NCBI RefSeq assembly: GCF_000313135.1
Contig: NW_004457538.1
Coordinates: forward strand, 365,135 to 429,134
From: Acanthamoeba castellanii str. Neff
Lineage: Eukaryota; Discosea; Longamoebia; Acanthamoebidae
Length of the DNA stretch: 64,000 nt
Direction of reading: 5' to 3'
The translations under genes and the position numbers were made by a program. Below are positions 31,543-44,000 of the stretch, one piece after another (within the stretch, counting starts at the first letter, position 1; each line of letters begins with the position of its first letter). Under the pieces are notes generated by a model that ran no database searches, was not told the origin of the DNA, and saw only the letters and a program-made list of their open reading frames with translations.

Positions 31543-34152
31543 TGAGTCCTTGGCCGCGGCTTTGGGCATACGACGCACGACACACGGCCGCATGCAACAC
31601 GCATGACACAGGACGCACGCACCCAAACTTTTACGAAGCTTTTGGGAGCGACGAGGAGCGGGGTGTTGGAGGGCACGGAGGCGAGGCTCAACGATGATAA
31701 GGAAGAAGATGGAGTGGGAGATGAGGAAGAGGACGCCAGCGATAACGATGGCGACAACGACAACGGCGACGATGACGACGGCGAGGTCGACTCGCGCGGG
31801 CTTACCGCCGCGGTCACCGTCGCCGTGCCCTGGTTGCTGCGCGCCAGCCAGCCCGGTGGCGGTGGTGACGTCAGCAAATAAAATAAAATAAATTGTGGTA
31901 GTCGCGCGAGTGGTACGAACCCGCTGACCTTCAGCATGAGGCTCAGGCGCGGGACCTTGCTCTCCCGCCCATTCTCTGGCTCCGCCCCAGCCGTCGACCT
32001 GCCACACACAACACACGCGACCAAACACGCACGACACACAGCGCGACACGACGCGCACAGAACGAGTTGAGGCATTAGGGCCGCGCGCCGCCGATTGGGT
32101 TTGCAATCCCGCTTCTCAGGGCACCAGCCGGGCTGGGTGGTACTTACCGAGTGGTGGTGGGGTCGCTGGTCGGCCTGAGCGCGGACGCGGGCGGCGGCGC
32201 CTTCTCCTCAAAGAACTGCTTGAGCACGTTGATGTTGCTCCGCCGTCGCTGGAGCGAGTTGTCCTCCAGCATCACGCCGGGCACGCCCAGGAGCCCCGAG
32301 GGCCTCGTGTCGTACGTTGTGGCCGCGGTGGTCAGTGGTGTCGACACCACCAAAGTCGTTTGTTTCGTGCTCGATTCGTGCGAGGCCGTGGTGGTGATGG
32401 TGGTGGTGGCCACGCTCGTAGCGGCGGCGACGCTGTCGGCACTAGTGCTAGCGGTGTCCGGCACCTCCGTCTCCTCCGGCGGGAAGAAGAATTCGAGCGA
32501 CGTGATGATGGTCTCCACGACAGCGTTCGCCGTGTTTACGTCCCTGAGCGCGGGTGCAGCACAAGCTCAGAGTGAGCGCTGTGATGGTTCTCTTGTCACC
32601 GCACGCACGCACGCAACACAACACAACACACAACACACAGCTATATGTACCGAAGTACAAATTCGGGCTGGGTGTGGTCCTGCTGTGAAGGGTGAGGGTA
32701 GAGCACGTTGGGGCCTAAAGAATCACACCGGACCAGGTCATTCCCGCGTGTGTGTGCGGTGGTGTGTGCGTCGTGTCTTTGTATGTGTCGTGTACGTGTC
32801 TTGTGCGTCGTGTGTCGGTTGTGTCCGGCTACGAACCGATCATGGAGGCGAGGTTGGAGGCGGGCATGAGATTGCTGTGCGAGTGCTGGGCCACTCGGCT
32901 CAGCAGCCCGAATATTCGGTGCATCACCTTGAGGTTGACCTCCGGCAGCTCCTGCATCACCGCCATAATCTTCTCCCGACTCTCCTCCGGCGTCTGTGAT
33001 GCTGTTGTCGCGTGTGTTGCGTCGCGTCGTGTGTCGTGTGTCGTGTGTCGTGTGTCGTGTGTCGTGTGTCGTGTGTCGTGTGTCGTGTGTCGTGTGTCGT
33101 GTGTCGTGTGTCGTGTGTCGTGTGTCGTGTGTCGTGTGTCGTGTGTCGTGTGTCGTGTGTCGTGTGTCGTGTGTCGTGTGTCTCGTGTCAGAAACAAATG
33201 AGTCCGAGACGAGGGGCCTGGCCCCTTGGGGGGTAGGGTCGCACTTGATATGGCCTCGGCCATCGAGTTCCACACCGAGAAGGGAAACAACGGTTCGGGC
33301 AGTCGTCTGCACATTGAATTGGCCCAAGAGTTAACGAAGACGCACGCGTGTTGTGCGTGCATATGCGCATATGCGTGCGTGCGTGGTAGCGCCTATTTGC
33401 CTGAGGAATCGTTTGATGATGTTTGCGGCTGCGTGCGGGTTGGCAATGGCGTCGAGGTCGATCGGTTGGCCGGCGTCAATGTCCCGCGTGAGGTTGTTCA
33501 TGAGGCTGGTCACGTCGATGCGGAACAGGCCCACGGCCTGCAGGCCGTGCCGCTCGATGTAGGAGATGGCGTCGCTGATCACCGCCGGCACGGGCCGGCC
33601 CTCGCGGTGGGCCAGCTCCTGCAGCTCGGTGCCGAAGAGCGCCTTCTCACCGCCGCCCTCCTGTGTGGTGGTCGTCGTGGCCGCGTCCTCGCGAACGACG
33701 GGCAGCCAGCCGAGGCACACATCGTTGTCGCTCGGTCGGCCCTCAACCTCCTCCGCCCAATCGCCCAACGAAAACCACCCTGCAGCGCACACGCACCACC
33801 GCACACGCACACGCACACGCACACGCGCGCACAAGGCATGGACGTGAACAAAGCCGCCAACACACAAGACAGAAGAGAGAGAGAGAGAGAGAGGTGAGCA
33901 CTTGCCTGGTGGCGGGAGCGGGCGCCAGAGGACGAGGCCGCGGACCTCCCACACCTTCTGTGCCTCCATGCATTGTGCCACCTCCACACGGCCCTTCCCT
34001 GTCGCGTGCGTGAGTTCGTGAGCCCCAAAAATGATTTCACCTAACGACGGAGGTAAAGCGGGCCGGAGAGAGCAGATGGATTTAAATGGAGGATGGGGCA
34101 TCAGAAGCAGAAGGGGAGTACCTTTGTGGGTGCTGGAAGATCGTTGTCGCAT
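29702..34152 (-). CDS. RhoGAP - Vps62-like - FYVE zinc-finger protein
   Basis: ATG at 34152 (MRQRSSSTHK). Exon 2 starts GEIIFGAHELTHATGKG and reaches LVLWRPLPPP|GWFSLGD, a Vps62-type motif. Then a RhoGAP domain: LHALQAVGLFRI-type arginine-finger region (HGLQAVGLFRIDV), IIKRFLR|RLPEPLFPF, EESREKIMAVMQELPEVNLK and SMIG|PNVLYPHP. A Ser/Thr-rich linker follows, then a second Vps62-type segment (SKFGFLALWK|AVPPTPQYVALGNVV) and a FYVE finger (CHLCGAAFTILRRRHRCRSC, FCGTCSV). RHHCRxCG-like basic residues suggest PI3P binding, so an endosomal Rho regulator is inferred. Two introns need GC donors. The arginine finger appears as GLFRI. The 3' end is uncertain: TGA near 29702 in one frame, while the phase of the last donor allows a longer end. 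Confidence 0.77.
31489..31540. repeat. (AC)26 microsatellite
   Basis: Perfect AC dinucleotide run in an intron of the RhoGAP-FYVE gene; expected to be length-polymorphic. Confidence 0.95.
33027..33181. repeat. (TCGTGTG)22 heptamer array in RhoGAP intron
   Basis: About 22 near-perfect heptamers between the RhoGAP exons ending MAEAIS and starting TSQTPEESREK. In transcript sense it reads (CACACGA)n. It fills most of the intron. Confidence 0.95.
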
Positions 34153-34553
34153 TGGGAGGCGAGGTATGTGATGATTGGCAAAAATGCAAGTAGCGGATTG
34201 AATTTGTGATCACAATGATGTTGATTTCACTTCACTTGCGTGGTACGGTTACAACACGTTGTTGCTTCTTTACCGTTACCGTTACTCGAAGGGCGCGACT
34301 GCCAGAACTCGAAAGGTATCCACCCTATTTAGGGCTGCACGTAGAAACGAAGAGGTGTTCTTCTGCTGAGAAAAAAAAATCAGAAGCATGCCAAGCATTC
34401 CTTTGATATCATTTTCTTTTAAATTTTCTTTTTCAAATCCAAAGCCCAGGAAACGGTGGCTTGGTTGGCCTCGTGTTGCTCACGAACTCGATCGGCCGAG
34501 GATTCCTCGAGATTAGACGAGAGTGAGAGCTTGTTTTCATCTTGATAGAGAGG
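34153..34553. promoter_or_regulatory. Divergent promoter region RhoGAP-FYVE / CS-SH3-glutaminase-like
   Basis: 401 bp between divergent ATGs. AT-rich around 34165-34250 and 34365-34440 with an A run at 34371-34379 and T runs. No canonical TATA box. Confidence 0.45.
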
Positions 34554-37500
34554 ATGAGGAGGACTCCCGGTCCCGGAGGAGTCGGAGGAGGCAGCGGGTG
34601 GAGGTGGTCACAAACGGAGACGCTAGTGCGGGTCTCGTTCCCCGTTCCGCGCGGCATTCGCAAGAGCGATGTGACGCTCGCCCTTGCTGACAACAGCCTT
34701 CGCCTCACGCTACGCGACTTCCCTCAGCCCCTACTCGACGTACTGCTGCTTTCCTTACCCCCCCAACAAATCAAATCCTCTCTAATTACTCCATCATCCG
34801 GGACATTATCTCTCTTTTTTTCCATGCATCCTTGTGTTCTTGTTTTCTTATTATTCGCACCGTCTACTCCTTTTGGAAGCGGATTGGTGTCTCGATTGAT
34901 TACGTCAGGTGGCTACACTTTGAAGCCACAACTTGTGACGGTCTCTCTTTTCTCCCTTCCAATGTACGTCTTTTCTTTAGGGGCCGCTGTGGGGCCGCGT
35001 CAACACGCAGAAGGCTCGCCAACGCGGGCACAAGCTCACCAAGAGCGGACGTGTACGCGTTACCATTGCCCGTGTACAACTATCATCATGACCGCACACT
35101 CACTCACTTCGCTTTGCTCGTCTCGCCGACGGGCCGACGCTCTACGCTCTACTGTGGCGCGAGTGCAGGTGGCAGTCACGCTTGAGAAGCTGGACCGCGT
35201 GCCCTGGAAGCAGCTGTTCAAGGAGGGCGTCAGCCCAGTCGCCGCCAACTACGCCGCACTCACGCCTCCGCCACCGCAGAAGAAGGTGCGTGTGTGGGCT
35301 GAACACGACGCACACATTTTGTTCTCCGCCGGTACGTCCAGATCTGACGCCTGGCGCGTTTCGTGCGTCGTTGTGTACACCAGTTGATGGTGGTGTACGA
35401 CTATGACTCGGAGGCGCCGAACGAGCTGACCATTCGGGAGAACGACATCGTCACGGTGATCACCGAAGACCCGTCCGGTTGGTGGAAGGGCGAACTCAAC
35501 GGCACCGTGGGCCTGTTTCCCTCCAACTTTGCCCAGCCCTACGAAGATGGGGTACCGTACCCCGCCTCCTGTCCACACCTAATGCAGAAGCATGGAAGTA
35601 CTTAAAAGCGACAACACACACACACACACACACACACAATTCGAATGCACAGCCTGACCAGTGTACGCTCCGCCCTCTTTGTTGTGCTCTTTCTCGATTT
35701 CCATATTTCATCATTTTCATTTTATTACAATTATGAATGTTAATCCATATTGATTTATTTTTTAATTTGCTCCCAATGATGCAGTGGACGACGACTCGGA
35801 TGAGGAGGAGGCGCCCGCGCTTTCCGCCATGCCCGTGGGAGCGGTGCCCATGCCTGGGCTACCGTCGACGCCGACCGGCGCTCCGTCCAACGAACTAATG
35901 GCCAAACTGCAGCGCCGAACTGCCGCCATTAACGGGCCGGCCGGCGGCGGAGCCGGACCTGCTCCTGGGCCTGCCGGGCCAGGAGCATCTGCACCGAGGG
36001 AGCCGCCCGCTTCTGGAGCCCCAAACGCGCCAGGTCCATTCGCCGGCCGCGGCGGACCCGGGACGAGGCCGCGCGACGTACGTCCCATTCCCGGTCGGCT
36101 CGCCGCGGCGCACCACGCACGACACACACGCACGACACACACCTGACGCCGTGCAATATTTATAGATTGCCAGGCAGTCGACACCGGTTCACGCTGGCCT
36201 GGGCGGCGGCGGCCCTGGCGCTCCGCCCGTAGCCGCCCGAGCGCAGAGCACCATGTTCGGTAGGGCCCCTCCCCGCACCAATCACGACGCGTTGATCGTT
36301 GGCGCTTTCTGATTTCTGATTGGCCGTCGGTCCCGCAGGAGGCCCCGAGGAGCGACCACGCGGAGGCGGGGTGGCCGCGGCCGCAGCGGCTCTGGCCGGC
36401 GCCGGCGGCGGTGGCTTTGGCGGCGCGCCCCCACCCGGCGGGGTGTCGCCCTTTGGCGGCGGCCTCCGAGCGACGGCTCCCCCCGCCACCTCCGCAGCTC
36501 CCGCTCCGGCGGGCGGCGGTACTCCACCGCCGGCGGGCGGCGACGCATCGAGGAGGCCGCCGCCTCCGGCCCGCGCCGCGCGTCCGATGCTCTCCGTCTC
36601 GGAGCCCGTCCCCGAGCTCGTCGTCTCGTCGCCCTTCGGCGGAAAACTCCGGCGAGCGGCTCCAGCGGCTCAGGGCCAGGAATCGATACCGTACCGTGCT
36701 GCCAACCCCCCAGAGTTCTCTCGTTTTCGTGGGAACTTAAAACGCTTCACTTCTTCTCTCGCGCATTAGTGCGCCGACGCCTGAGCTCGAGGCGTCGACG
36801 GACGCCTACGCTCCCCCGGGCACCGTGGCCCTCGCCAAGGCACGCACTTCACCGCACGCTGGGCGTGGCCGTAACCGCTAACATCTATGTACGCACGCGC
36901 GACCGCACACGCACGTACCACCGCACACGCACTCGCACACGCACAGGCGCTGCATGATTACCAAGCCACGGCCGACGAGGAACTCTCCTTTGGTGAAGGA
37001 GACACCATCTACGTGCTCGTCAAGGTGGGCCTCCATTTTTTCTCCTTTTTTTCTCTCTTTTTCTTTTCGATGCTGACACCTGACACGTCACGGCCGATGT
37101 AGGATGAGTCGGGTTGGTGGCAGGGCACGGCGAACGACCAGACGGGTTGGTTCCCGGCAAACTTCGTGGAGGAGCTGCCCTTCAACCCCGGGTCGTCGGA
37201 CTCGTCGTCGGGCGCGTCGAGCCCGATGAGCTCCAGCGGCGACGGCCTCGGCGCGGATGACGCCAGCGTGGCCGACAAGCTCGCCGACATCGAATCCGCC
37301 AGCGCTCGTCTGGTAAGCGACGCCCAATCTCCACCTTCGCTTCTCCTCTTTCTGACCAATCACTTCCTTCGTGTGTTATGTCGTGTTGTGTGTTGTGTCG
37401 TGTTGTGCGCGTGCCGTGCAATATTACACCAGGCGACACCCAAGCGCGCCCTGGGAGCGTCGAACAGGCGCAGGCCGTCGCGCTCCAAGCGAGTCATTCC

Positions 37501-38789
37501 GACGGCCACGACCGGCGCGCCGTCGGTCGTGGCCTCCGTCCTCGCCTCCACCCCGGTCCCCGCCGCGTCGCCCGCCCCCGCCGCCTCCGCCCCCGGCCCC
37601 GCCCACGCCCCCGCCGCTTCCTTCCGATCCAATCTGCGAAAGTGCGTGGCTCTCTTTCTCTCTCTCGCCATTGGTCGCCAGGGTCTCACAACGCTGGCGT
37701 TGTGTTGCATGGTAACCACATTGTGCAGGGCCGCACCCACCGACCAAAACTCCGAGCCCGCGGAGGTTCCGGTGCCGGCTCCCGTCCCAGTCCCGGTCCC
37801 CGTGCCGGCCGCCGTCGAGGTCGAGAAGGAGGAGTCGAAGCCCACCGCCGTGCGTCGTCCCCTCTTAGAATCCGATCCGATCGCGCTGACTTTGACTCAC
37901 GTGACGTGGCGCCCACCATCACCCAGGCCACGGCCGCGCAGCTCAAGAAGAGCCCGACGGCCGTCCTGGCCAGGGCGCCCGAAGGTGGTCTGGGCTCGTT
38001 GCCATCGCGACAGGCCACGTCACCCCTGTTGACCCGTTCCCCGGCTCCGGCGCCTGCGGCCGCGGCTTCGTCGCCGCTGTCGACATCGCAGTCGTCGTTG
38101 TCGACAGAGGCCGGCCAAGTGGTGGCGCCCGCCAAGTGGCCGACGCAGCAGCTGGGCGAGTACCGCGAGTTCTGCGCCGACGTGTGGGCCATGCTCGAGT
38201 CGGCCGGCGGTCTGGCGCTCGCGCTCTGCGCCACGGACGGCACCACGTTCGCCCGCGGCGGCGCCAGCCAGCAGCCCTTTGCGCTGGGCCAGTGCGCCTT
38301 CCCCTTCCTCCAGGCCCTTGCCATCAGCCAATCGGGCGCGCGCGCAATCTCCGCTCAAGTCGGATCCGAGCGAGCCCCGGCAGGTACTGTGGTCGACAAC
38401 AATTGCAACCAAGCTGCGCGAGTGGTAACTAATAATGTGTGCGTGTCGTGTCGTGTCGTGTCGTGTCGTGTCGTGTCGTGTCGTGTCGTGTCGTGTCGTG
38501 TCGTGTCGTGTCGTGTCGTGTCGTGCACCGTGTGTTGTGGTGCTCTTGCGACGCAGGCGATGTACTGTCGCTGAATGCGGAGAAGAAGCCGCACAACGGG
38601 CTGACGTCGGCGGGCGCGCTCAAGCTGTCGTCGCTGCTCTTCGCCGGCCAGGACGCGCCGTCGCGCATCGGACAGCTCCTCCAGTCCTTTGCCGCCTTCG
38701 CCGGCACGCCCTACCTCTCCTGCTCCATGCCCGCTTACCTCTCGCTCCGCTCCACCTCCAACAAGTACGCGCCGCATTCCTCTCTCTCT

Positions 38790-38820
<31 letters not shown>

Positions 38821-39621
38821 CGCGGTGGTGTGCGTGCGTGTGTATGTGTGTCTGTGGGCGTGTGCGGTCTGACGGACAATGGTATGTGTGGCATCTATGT
38901 GCAGAGACTATGCGCTGGCCTATTGGCTGAAGAGCTGCGGCGGGCTCGATAGCGAGGTGGTCCCCACCCTCGAGTTCTTCTTCCAGGCCTGCGCCATCGA
39001 GGTGCGCGCGCCCATCTCGCTCACAGTCAAACCTACGTAGTAGCGACTGGTCTTGACCGGGCTCTCTTCTCTTTCTCGACAGGCCTCGTGCGAGACGCTG
39101 GCCGTGATGGCCGCCACCCTCGCCAACTCGGGCGCTTGTCCCTCGTCCCTCAAGTACGCAACTCTCGGTGTCGTGTCGTGCCGTGCGCTATGTGTAGTGT
39201 CGTTTGTCGTGTGCGCACAAAGGCTAACGAACGAACGAACGAACGAACACGACGCGACAGGCAAGCGGCGAAGTCTGACGCGGCGGACGAGGTGGCCAAC
39301 CAGCTGGCCAGCTGCTGCGGGCTGTCGGAATTCAACGAAACGCCCGACCGACCCATCGCCCTCAAGGCCTCCACCACTTCCGGATGCGCCTTCATCGTCG
39401 GTACGTGGACCCCCTGACTTCCTTTCCATCGCCTTCAACCACTTTTCTCACCGGCTGGCGCTCTTCACGTGTGTGTCGTGTGTGTCGTGTTGTTTCTTTG
39501 GGATGCAGTGCCGGGTGTGATGGGTCTGGCCGTCTTCGCGCCGCCCGCGTCCCCTGCGCTGGGCAAGTTCTGTAAACTACTCTCCTCCAAGTACCCCTCG
39601 CTCCACTCCGCCAAGCCATAA
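34554..39621 (+). CDS. CS-SH3-SH3-glutaminase-like fusion, probable pseudoenzyme scaffold
   Basis: ATG at 34554, TAA at 39619-39621, many exons. A CS (p23/NudC) domain opens it (WSQTETLVRVSFPVP, LLD|GPLWGRV, VAVTLEKLDRVPWKQLF). SH3-1: MVVYDYDSEAPNELTI...GWWKGELNGTVGLFPSNF. A long Pro/Gly/Ala linker. SH3-2: ALHDYQATADEELSF...GWWQGTANDQTGWFPANF. A second Pro/Ala linker. The last 400 residues match human GLS-type glutaminase: LALCATDGTTFARGG, KPHNGLTSAGALKLSSLL, LEFFFQACAIEASCETLAVM, AATLANSGACP and VVPGVMGLAVFAPP. The expected QSxxK is GQCAF, and the Asn, Glu and Tyr ligands appear replaced. Key joins (SERAPA|GDVLSL) are in phase, so this is one gene. Role inferred: cytosolic SH3 scaffold using a dead glutaminase fold. 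Confidence 0.83.
38443..38525. repeat. (TGTCG)16 pentamer array in the fusion gene
   Basis: Near-perfect pentamers in the intron that separates the SERAPA and GDVLSLNAEKKPHN glutaminase-like exons. Confidence 0.95.
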
Positions 39622-41021: not shown

Positions 41022-44000
41022 ATGTCAGATCGCAGACGCTCTGGTATTTAGCCTCCCATTTCTGTTTTTTACCCTATCTTTATTTCTTTTAATATTTAAT
41101 GCAAATCATCTTGTCAATTCATCCCATCTCACTCTCCTCCAATCTCCATCTTGCACGTGCAACTGCAGATCGAGATGAGCGTGATGTGCGTCGCAGCGAC
41201 AGGGATGACTACCGCAGCGACCGAGATCGCGACCGCGACGACTACCGCAGCGGCAGCCGCTCCGACAGAGACCGCGACCGCTACGTTTCAGACCGGGACC
41301 GCGATCGCAGCAAGCGCTCGCGCGAGAGGGACGACGGCGCGCGCGGCAGCCGCCGCGACATCGACGACCAGCGCGACGCCAAGCGCAGGCGCGACGACGA
41401 CATCAACGATCGCGGCTCGCGGGGCTCGTCCTACGCCGACGCGCAGCACGCGCGTGCGATGGGCGTGACGTCGGCCGGCGCCGACGACGACGGAATGGAG
41501 GTGGTGCAGCCGACCGAGGAGGAGCTCGAGGAGGCGCGGCGCGTGGAGGCCCTCCTCCAGAACTCGTCGGGCGCCCACCACCGCGAGGCCAAGATCGCCG
41601 GCATCCGCCCGACCGAGAAGGTAACACCACGAGGCGCCCCCATCACCGTTGTCCTCTTTCGGGCCACTAAGGCGCGCGTGTCGTGTTGTGCGTTGTGTGT
41701 GCGTGTGTGGTGCGTTGTGTGTGCATGTGTGCTGTGTGTGCGTGTGTCGTGCGTGTTGTGTCGTGGGTGAGCAGTTGTCGGCGAGGCCGGAGCCGGTGTC
41801 GATCGAGGAGCTGGCCAAGCAGCGCGCCCAGGAGAGCGCCAAGCCCAAGTTCCTCTCCAAAGAAGGTCTGTTCTTCCCCCTTCCGGGCATACGAACGAGC
41901 CCACCAGAAGACAACACACACTCACCCATCCGTGCGTGTCGTGTCGTGTGCTGTGTGTGTCGTGCTATGTCAACAGAGAGGCAGCGATTGGCGTTGGAGA
42001 GGCGCGCGGCGCAGGTGAAGGAGAAGCAGGAAAAGACGGCCGAGATCCGCGAATCGCGCCAGCAGTTCTTCCACCAGGCCGACGACGCCCCGCCCGCCAA
42101 GCCCGACCTCATCGACGACCGACGCGGCGGGGGCGGGCGTGACCGCGATCGTGACCGCGAGCGCGACCGTGACCGTGACCGTGATCGCAGCGATCGCGAT
42201 CGTGACCGCGAGCGCGACCACTGGCGCGACCGCCGCAACGACGACCTCGAGAAGAACCGCGTCGGCGGCGGCGGCGGCGGCAGCGACCGCGGGCGCGAGA
42301 GAGCGGACCGCGATGACCGCGGCGGCCGCGGGCGCGACGAGGCGGGCGACCGCCCGGACCGCGAGCGCGACCGCAGGCGCGAGGAGCTCGAAAAGAAGGA
42401 GAACCTCACCCGCGAGGAATCCCAAGAACTCTCCGAAATCAAGGTATGCATGCATGCGTGTCATTCCATCTATGTGTGTGCGTGTGCGCACACGCGTGTG
42501 TCATGTGTCGTGTTCTAACAACACGTTGCTTATATGTAGGCGCACTACCTGGGGCTGAAGAAGGAGAAGCGGAAGGTGGTGAAGCCGAGCGAGAAGTTCA
42601 AGTTCGTGTTCGCGTGGGACCTGTCGGAGGACACGTCGCGCGACCACAATCCGCTCTACAACCAGCGCCTCGACGTGCGGCCCTCGTTCGGCCGCGGCTT
42701 CCTGGCCGGCATCGACCAGAAGCAGCAGCTCAAGGCCTTTGAGGCCGACAAGGACCACTCGCGCGTGGCCCGCGTCGAGCGCCGCCTGGACGAGTCCTAC
42801 CTCGGGCGGGGCGACACGGGCCGGCACTGGTCGCAGAAGGCCCTGGGCGAGATGACCCAGCGCGACTGGCGCATCTTCAAGGAGGACCACAGCATCTCGA
42901 CCAAGGGCGGCCGCGTGCCGGTGCCCATGCGCAACTGGGGCGAGTCCAAGCTCCCCACCGTGCTCCTCGATGGTACGCACACGCTCGCCGCACACACCGC
43001 ACACGCACACGCGTGTGTTGTATGATGGTTTTTTTTTTTTTAACTAGTGTGTCGTGTGTGCAGCGATTGAGAGTGCGGGGTACAAGCAGCCGATGCCGAT
43101 CCAGATGCAGTCGATCCCGATCGGTCTGCAGGGCCGCGATCTGATCGGTCTGGCCGAGACGGGCTCCGGCAAGACCTGCGCCTTCGTCCTCCCCATGCTC
43201 GTCTACATCTCCAAGCTGCCCCCCATGACCGCCGAAAACGCCGTATGCCCCCCCCCTCAAACCGCACACGACACGACACGACACTCACTGACAATGACAC
43301 ACGACACACGACGACAGGCGGACGGGCCGTACGCGCTGATCATGGCGCCGACGCGGGAGCTGGCGCTGCAGATCGAGCAGGAGGCGGCCAAGTTCGCCAG
43401 CGCGATGGGCTTCCGCACGGTGGCGGTGGTGGGCGGCCAGTCGATCGAGGAGCAGGGCTTCTCGCTGCGCCGCGGTGCCGAGATTCTCATCGCCACGCCC
43501 GGCCGGCTGGTCGACTGCCTCGAGCAGCGCTACGTGGTGCTCAACCAGTGCAACTACGTCGTGCTCGATGAGGCCGATCGGATGGTGGACATGGGCTTCG
43601 AGGTGCAGGTCACCACCATCCTCGACGCCATGCCCTCGTCCAACCTCAAGTCCGAAGACGAGACCACGGCCGAGGAGCAGATGGCCGCACTCGTACGTCT
43701 TCTTTCTTTCGTTCTTTCTTTTCGCTTTCGTTCTTTGTTTCGGCGAAATGCTGACGTGTGTGTGTGGTCGGTGCGTGTGCGTGTGTGCAGCAAGAGGAGA
43801 AGCCCGACCACGTGTACAGAACGACGGTCATGTTTTCGGCCACGATGCCGGTCGCCGTCGAACGCCTCGCCAGAAAGTACACCTCCCCACCTTCACCCCC
43901 TTGTCGTGTCGTGCTGTGTGCCGCGTGTGTCGTGCCGTGTCGTGCGGTGTGTGTCGTGCGGGCGCTGACGGTGCGCACGGTTGGCTGGTTACAGGTATCT

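Follow-up and report, generated by a model that had tools for sequence, protein, structure and literature searches.

Pseudoenzymes are known in many enzyme families. They are described in the review PMC10211241 as homologues of an enzyme family that lack its conserved catalytic motif, and the word glutaminase is absent from the main text of that review. For glutaminase, which is a drug target, PMC10912226 sets out that activity relies on the lid, the activation loop and filament contacts, and it names Ser286, Lys289, Tyr249, Glu381 and Tyr466. Judged by titles in the open literature, phrases for an inactive or pseudo-glutaminase lead mostly to carbamoyl phosphate synthetase, and pseudoenzyme combined with glutaminase leads to vitamin B6 synthesis or other subjects. 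The remark of an initial annotation that no described CS-SH3-SH3-glutaminase protein was known to its author agrees with the titles surveyed: none pointed to an inactive PF04960 glutaminase or to a CS-SH3-glutaminase fusion, which is weak evidence of absence since subscription journals lie mostly outside the open literature. Papers on Acanthamoeba castellanii glutaminase in the same literature included none on such a fusion by title, and nothing was found for CS with SH3 in amoeba or for glutaminase with SH3 in Acanthamoeba.

The window analysed here, a 64,000-nucleotide stretch of the A. castellanii str. Neff genome (contig NW_004457538.1, positions 365,135 to 429,134 of the forward strand), contains a gene whose product opens with a CS domain, continues with two SH3 domains and ends in a glutaminase-family domain with an altered active site. 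The gene around 37920-39621 was rebuilt from splice sites and corrected with the public protein P0121, giving the following features:

34554..39621, + strand: whole coding region of the fusion gene, 19 exons and 1021 aa, a splice-site model in one frame, matched by P0121 over all but the first 24 residues
34554-34739, 34981-35052, 35169-35285, 35384-35551, 35653-35662, 35785-36077, 36166-36259, + strand: exons 1-7
36339-36690, 36770-36839, 36947-37024, 37103-37312, 37433-37641, 37729-37849, + strand: exons 8-13
37927-38383, 38557-38764, 38905-39001, 39083-39153, 39261-39400, 39509-39621, + strand: exons 14-19
35653-35662, + strand: 10-base microexon, its residues present in P0121, with ag and gt on either side
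34602..35189, + strand: CS domain over 3 exons, aa 17-93, PF04969 E 4.2e-07 and 31.3 bits against a cut-off of 21.3 on the genomic model
35387..35542, + strand: first SH3 domain, about aa 127-178, an SH3_1 stretch with GRB2 and Acanthamoeba myosin IB among the best solved matches
36837..37159, + strand: second SH3 domain over 3 exons, aa 454-499, the best SH3_1 stretch, with matches to GRB2, NCF1 and Acanthamoeba myosin IB
37993..38031, + strand: linker stretch GSLPSRQATSPLL, conserved in P0001 by alignment
38209..39546, + strand: pseudoglutaminase domain, Pfam match at aa 755-997, with the conserved start KWPxQQLG at 38134

P0121 has 995 aa in an intronless frame on a 3164-base contig, matches the model from residue 25 to its end and covers all 18 exon junctions; against the corrected model it differs only in its own first residue, two substitutions and one two-residue gap. 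Since the genomic span is 5068 bases and the 3164-base contig holds one open frame, the P0121 contig is spliced and probably represents a message. The evidence thus supports a single spliced message for the CS domain, two SH3 domains and glutaminase domain, with the start of the CS domain lying outside P0121. The one-transcript architecture proposed in the initial annotation stands across the 18 junctions, and its first 24 residues and the start codon at 34554 come from the genomic model alone, in which an in-frame stop at 34524 precedes the modelled start. Two separate genes are ruled out, as P0121 joins the domains. A donor at 35570 after the first SH3 domain was likewise rejected, because P0121 supports the donor at 35551 followed by the microexon. 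The intron 36840-36946 is of the GC-AG type, confirmed by P0121, and the other introns are GT-AG. By eye, the intron sequence at about 38440-38525 is mostly a short tandem repeat of gtcgt units, and a similar repeat lies near 33000-33190. Directly upstream, a RhoGAP gene (32829-34206, - strand, Pfam matches in two frames) is oriented away from the fusion gene; downstream, a frame at 42540-43022 on the + strand matches a DDX23-like domain.

Profile searches of the spliced protein placed the glutaminase, CS and both SH3 domains above the Pfam cut-offs, in line with the fusion first proposed. PF04960 was matched with E 8.4e-39 (133.9 bits against a cut-off of 27) and human GLS was the top solved-structure match by sequence (E 6.7e-37), so that the glutaminase relationship earlier noted at 37920..39621 is borne out. 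The NCBIfam glutaminase models match below their equivalog cut-offs, for example TIGR03814 with 101.2 against 255.4, as expected for a diverged relative. The closest solved relatives of the CS domain are NudC-type (E 2.2e-05); Pfam reports no CS domain in P0121 because that protein lacks the first 24 residues. SH3_1 (PF00018) was found in two stretches with 108.4 bits against a cut-off of 22.9, and no ankyrin family was matched by Pfam in the spliced fusion protein. Two PxxPx(R/K) motifs within the protein (aa 119-124 and 387-392) are given no weight, as a chain this rich in proline would be expected to contain them.

The active site was compared in a family alignment of 126 of the 130 proteins from sequence searches together with human GLS, the intact Acanthamoeba glutaminase and the fusion domain; P0001, P0121, P0129 and P0130 were left out as kin of the fusion protein. 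The relatives had been collected by likeness to the fusion protein (the best 120 of 339 matches), and further searches scored the 7997 candidates sharing most words. Human GLS numbering was anchored on S286 and K289, and eight active-site columns were picked beforehand for their role, among them N335, N388, Y414 and V484, which are taken as active-site positions from general background or from the initial annotation. The alignment gave the following replacements:

38290..38292, + strand: Gln782, replacing catalytic Ser286
38299..38301, + strand: Phe785, replacing catalytic Lys289
38607..38609, + strand: Ser830, replacing Asn335
38745..38747, + strand: Leu876, replacing Glu381
38906..38908, + strand: Asp883, replacing Asn388
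38978..38980, + strand: Phe907, replacing Tyr414
39325..39327, + strand: Ser960, replacing Tyr466
39370..39378, + strand: Ser-Thr-Thr, replacing KSGV, with Lys481 deleted and Gly483 and Val484 changed to Thr
39376-39378, + strand: Thr977, replacing Val484
38275..38316, + strand: block QPFALGQCAFPFLQ, where the Ser-x-x-Lys pair formerly lay, unchanged across the 5 records aligned

All eight residues are altered (S286Q, K289F, N335S, E381L, N388D, Y414F, Y466S and V484T), including six of six ligand residues (N335, E381, N388, Y414, Y466 and V484). The first seven changes had been reported in the initial annotation and are confirmed by the alignment; its eighth, Val484 to Cys, was wrong, as V484 aligns with Thr977. 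Two further changes had been missed, namely a gap at the KSG lysine K481, which is present in 126 of 128 relatives with Thr here in place of the Gly of the motif, and gaps at four of the seven activation-loop positions examined. By eye, YIPQLA, the stretch bearing the lid tyrosine, has no clear counterpart in the aligned fusion domain. The catalytic Ser occurs in 128 of 128 relatives and the Lys in 127 of 128. Among columns conserved in at least 95% of the 128 relatives, the active-site residues were lost in 8 of 8 cases and the others in 9 of 38 (Fisher P 9e-5); at 90% the other columns were lost in 24 of 60 (P 0.0014) and at 80% in 47 of 98 (P 0.006), against the same 8 of 8. The loss is thus concentrated at the active site, atop a high general divergence. 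A sequencing error behind the dead motif is ruled out, since P0121, P0129, P0001 and P0130 all read QPFALGQCAFPFLQ.

A PF04960 match combined with a missing catalytic motif makes the fusion domain a pseudoenzyme by homology. The alignment supports the view that the domain has lost the glutaminase catalytic residues; as far as can be read from residues alone, glutaminase activity may have gone with them, or relocated catalytic residues may act instead. The fold might accordingly catalyse another reaction or use such residues, as in some pseudoenzymes covered in PMC10211241, and a new conserved Gln and Cys do occur at the site; with Ser286, Lys289 and the KSG lysine all missing, a changed enzyme is most unlikely.

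The altered block recurs in relatives. The five records aligned were the window gene, P0121, P0129 (98% identity over 57% of the query), P0001 (74% over 31%, among the best 120 of 339 matches) and P0130 (41% over 69%), and the last three each cover the QPFALGQCAFPFLQ exon. In P0130 the block is identical in 14 of 14 residues and the preceding part of the domain in 22 of 44 (P 4e-4, from an alignment set by hand after the five-record comparison), and in P0001 the domain part is identical in 67 of 83 residues against 35 of 69 for the linker (P 1e-4). The kinship of P0001 and P0130 to the fusion protein rests on sequence searches and the QPFALGQCAFPFLQ alignment: by the Pfam glutaminase profile P0130 has no match and P0001 reaches 25.5 bits, just below the cut-off of 27. 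The full CS-SH3-SH3-glutaminase architecture was present only in the window gene and P0121, as P0001, P0129 and P0130 represent one exon each. No relative of the fusion protein was confirmed in the viral contigs scanned, and P0130 had no match among phage records.

Fixation of the altered catalytic block in diverged relatives argues against simple decay. Were the domain a relic under little constraint, this would account for its branch being very long (1.61, compared with 0.54 for intact GLS) and for the loss of many other conserved residues (47 of 98 columns conserved at 80%); yet the frame, the splice sites and the predicted fold are all maintained and 29 of 38 other near-invariant residues are kept, which makes this explanation very unlikely. 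Conservation of QPFALGQCAFPFLQ could be explained by core packing as well as by a binding site.

The structure prediction, which used 52 of the 130 proteins, overlays the domain on human GLS over 277-282 residues at 2.2-2.4 A, and the domain has the glutaminase fold in the predicted structure, in keeping with the earlier statement that the fold-keeping parts are conserved. The alignment behind the prediction consisted mostly of active glutaminases, on which the fold prediction leaned. Retention of the fold by the fusion domain is thus supported at the level of a model. The CS and SH3 part was mostly predicted with pLDDT <50 and had almost no relatives in its alignment. A kept pocket might take up a small molecule, such as an amino acid, and thereby switch the SH3 or CS modules, and both the predicted fold and the pocket block conserved in relatives would suit such a sensor. 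However, N335, E381, N388, Y414, Y466 and V484 are all altered, several to non-polar residues, and K481 is deleted; with the glutamine-ligand residues altered, glutamine sensing becomes less likely and a ligand sensor in general improbable. The sensing of glutamine-like ligands raised in the initial annotation is weakened by the same changes and by the shortened activation loop.

An intact glutaminase is encoded elsewhere in the genome. The same assembly also codes for the SH3 stretch of Acanthamoeba myosin IB at 98% identity over 49 residues, which places it in Acanthamoeba or very close to that genus. A PF04960 search of 38,447,144 bases in 250 contigs listed one locus, G000:C125:61025-62451, in 5 pieces, which keeps all eight active-site residues and KSG; the exons of the fusion gene were not listed, and exon-split diverged copies can escape such a search. 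When P0121 was compared with the genome (46 of 70 candidates scored), matches outside the fusion locus all fell in residues 71-577, so the glutaminase part had none. A tree of 129 sequences unites the fusion domain, the intact gene, human GLS, P0122, P0123 and P0124 with support 1.0, and the branching order inside this eukaryotic GLS group has support of 0 to 0.35. One of the five fusion-domain introns and one of the seven introns of the intact gene share column and phase (chance about 0.04), and the remainder differ. These data suggest that a eukaryotic GLS domain was duplicated, fused and deprived of catalysis, the order of these events being unestablished.

The dead domain might co-assemble with the cell's intact glutaminase, tuning the tetramers or filaments of that enzyme. 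Both proteins carry the same residue at four of the seven filament-interface positions named in PMC10912226, and positions 355, 373 and 375 differ, which makes co-assembly less likely. Four of the seven activation-loop positions examined are gaps, and the fusion protein opens with a CS domain, whereas GLS is usually mitochondrial. A regulatory subunit is therefore considered unlikely, even with an intact GLS present in the genome.

The gene probably makes a multidomain adaptor ending in a pseudoglutaminase, derived from a GLS domain that was duplicated, came to follow CS and SH3 modules in a fusion and lost its catalytic residues. This reading best fits the SH3 and CS modules, the long linkers with conserved GSLPSRQATSPLL and a dead domain whose altered face is conserved, and it is close to the scaffold role suggested in the initial annotation, which the protein may have. 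From the binding partners generally known for these domains, the SH3 modules would recognise proline-rich proteins, likely ones belonging to the actin and membrane machinery, and the CS module would bind a client or chaperone; the dead domain would serve as a folded docking or dimerising block whose remodelled active-site face binds a protein. More tentatively, QPFALGQCAFPFLQ might be a dedicated binding site in a family of amoebal pseudoglutaminase adaptors that couple SH3-bound cortical machinery to its ligand, in which case the glutaminase fold would have been reused as a signalling module. On this reading, an old metabolic enzyme would have been converted into a link that joins other proteins. 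A natural relative with the catalytic residues and loop changed and the fold kept would separate what catalysis needs from what folding needs, and may reveal what the glutaminase active-site surface can bind.

Among known systems, GRB2, NCF1 and Acanthamoeba myosin IB provide the nearest solved relatives of the two SH3 domains, and we know of no glutaminase domain in SH3 adaptors or myosin-I tails. Within PF04960, P0015 (352 aa, from a 53299-base contig) also has a damaged active site, keeping one of the eight residues, namely the serine, and unlike the fusion protein it has no CS or SH3 domains; it changes K289, N335, E381, N388, Y414, Y466 and the KSG lysine, and the genome contigs scanned with it gave no relative. 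Elsewhere among the 128 relatives, P0078 keeps six and P0108 seven of the eight, so that the fusion domain is not the only member of this family with a lost active site. The intact Acanthamoeba glutaminase shares the family, the tree group and one intron position with the fusion domain, is identical to it in 76 of 283 residues, and differs in keeping the catalytic and ligand residues. Human GLS/GAC and GLS2 are of the same family, and compared with them the fusion domain has every active-site residue checked changed and, relative to GLS, K481 deleted and the activation loop shortened, while the protein carries a CS and two SH3 domains instead of any ankyrin family.
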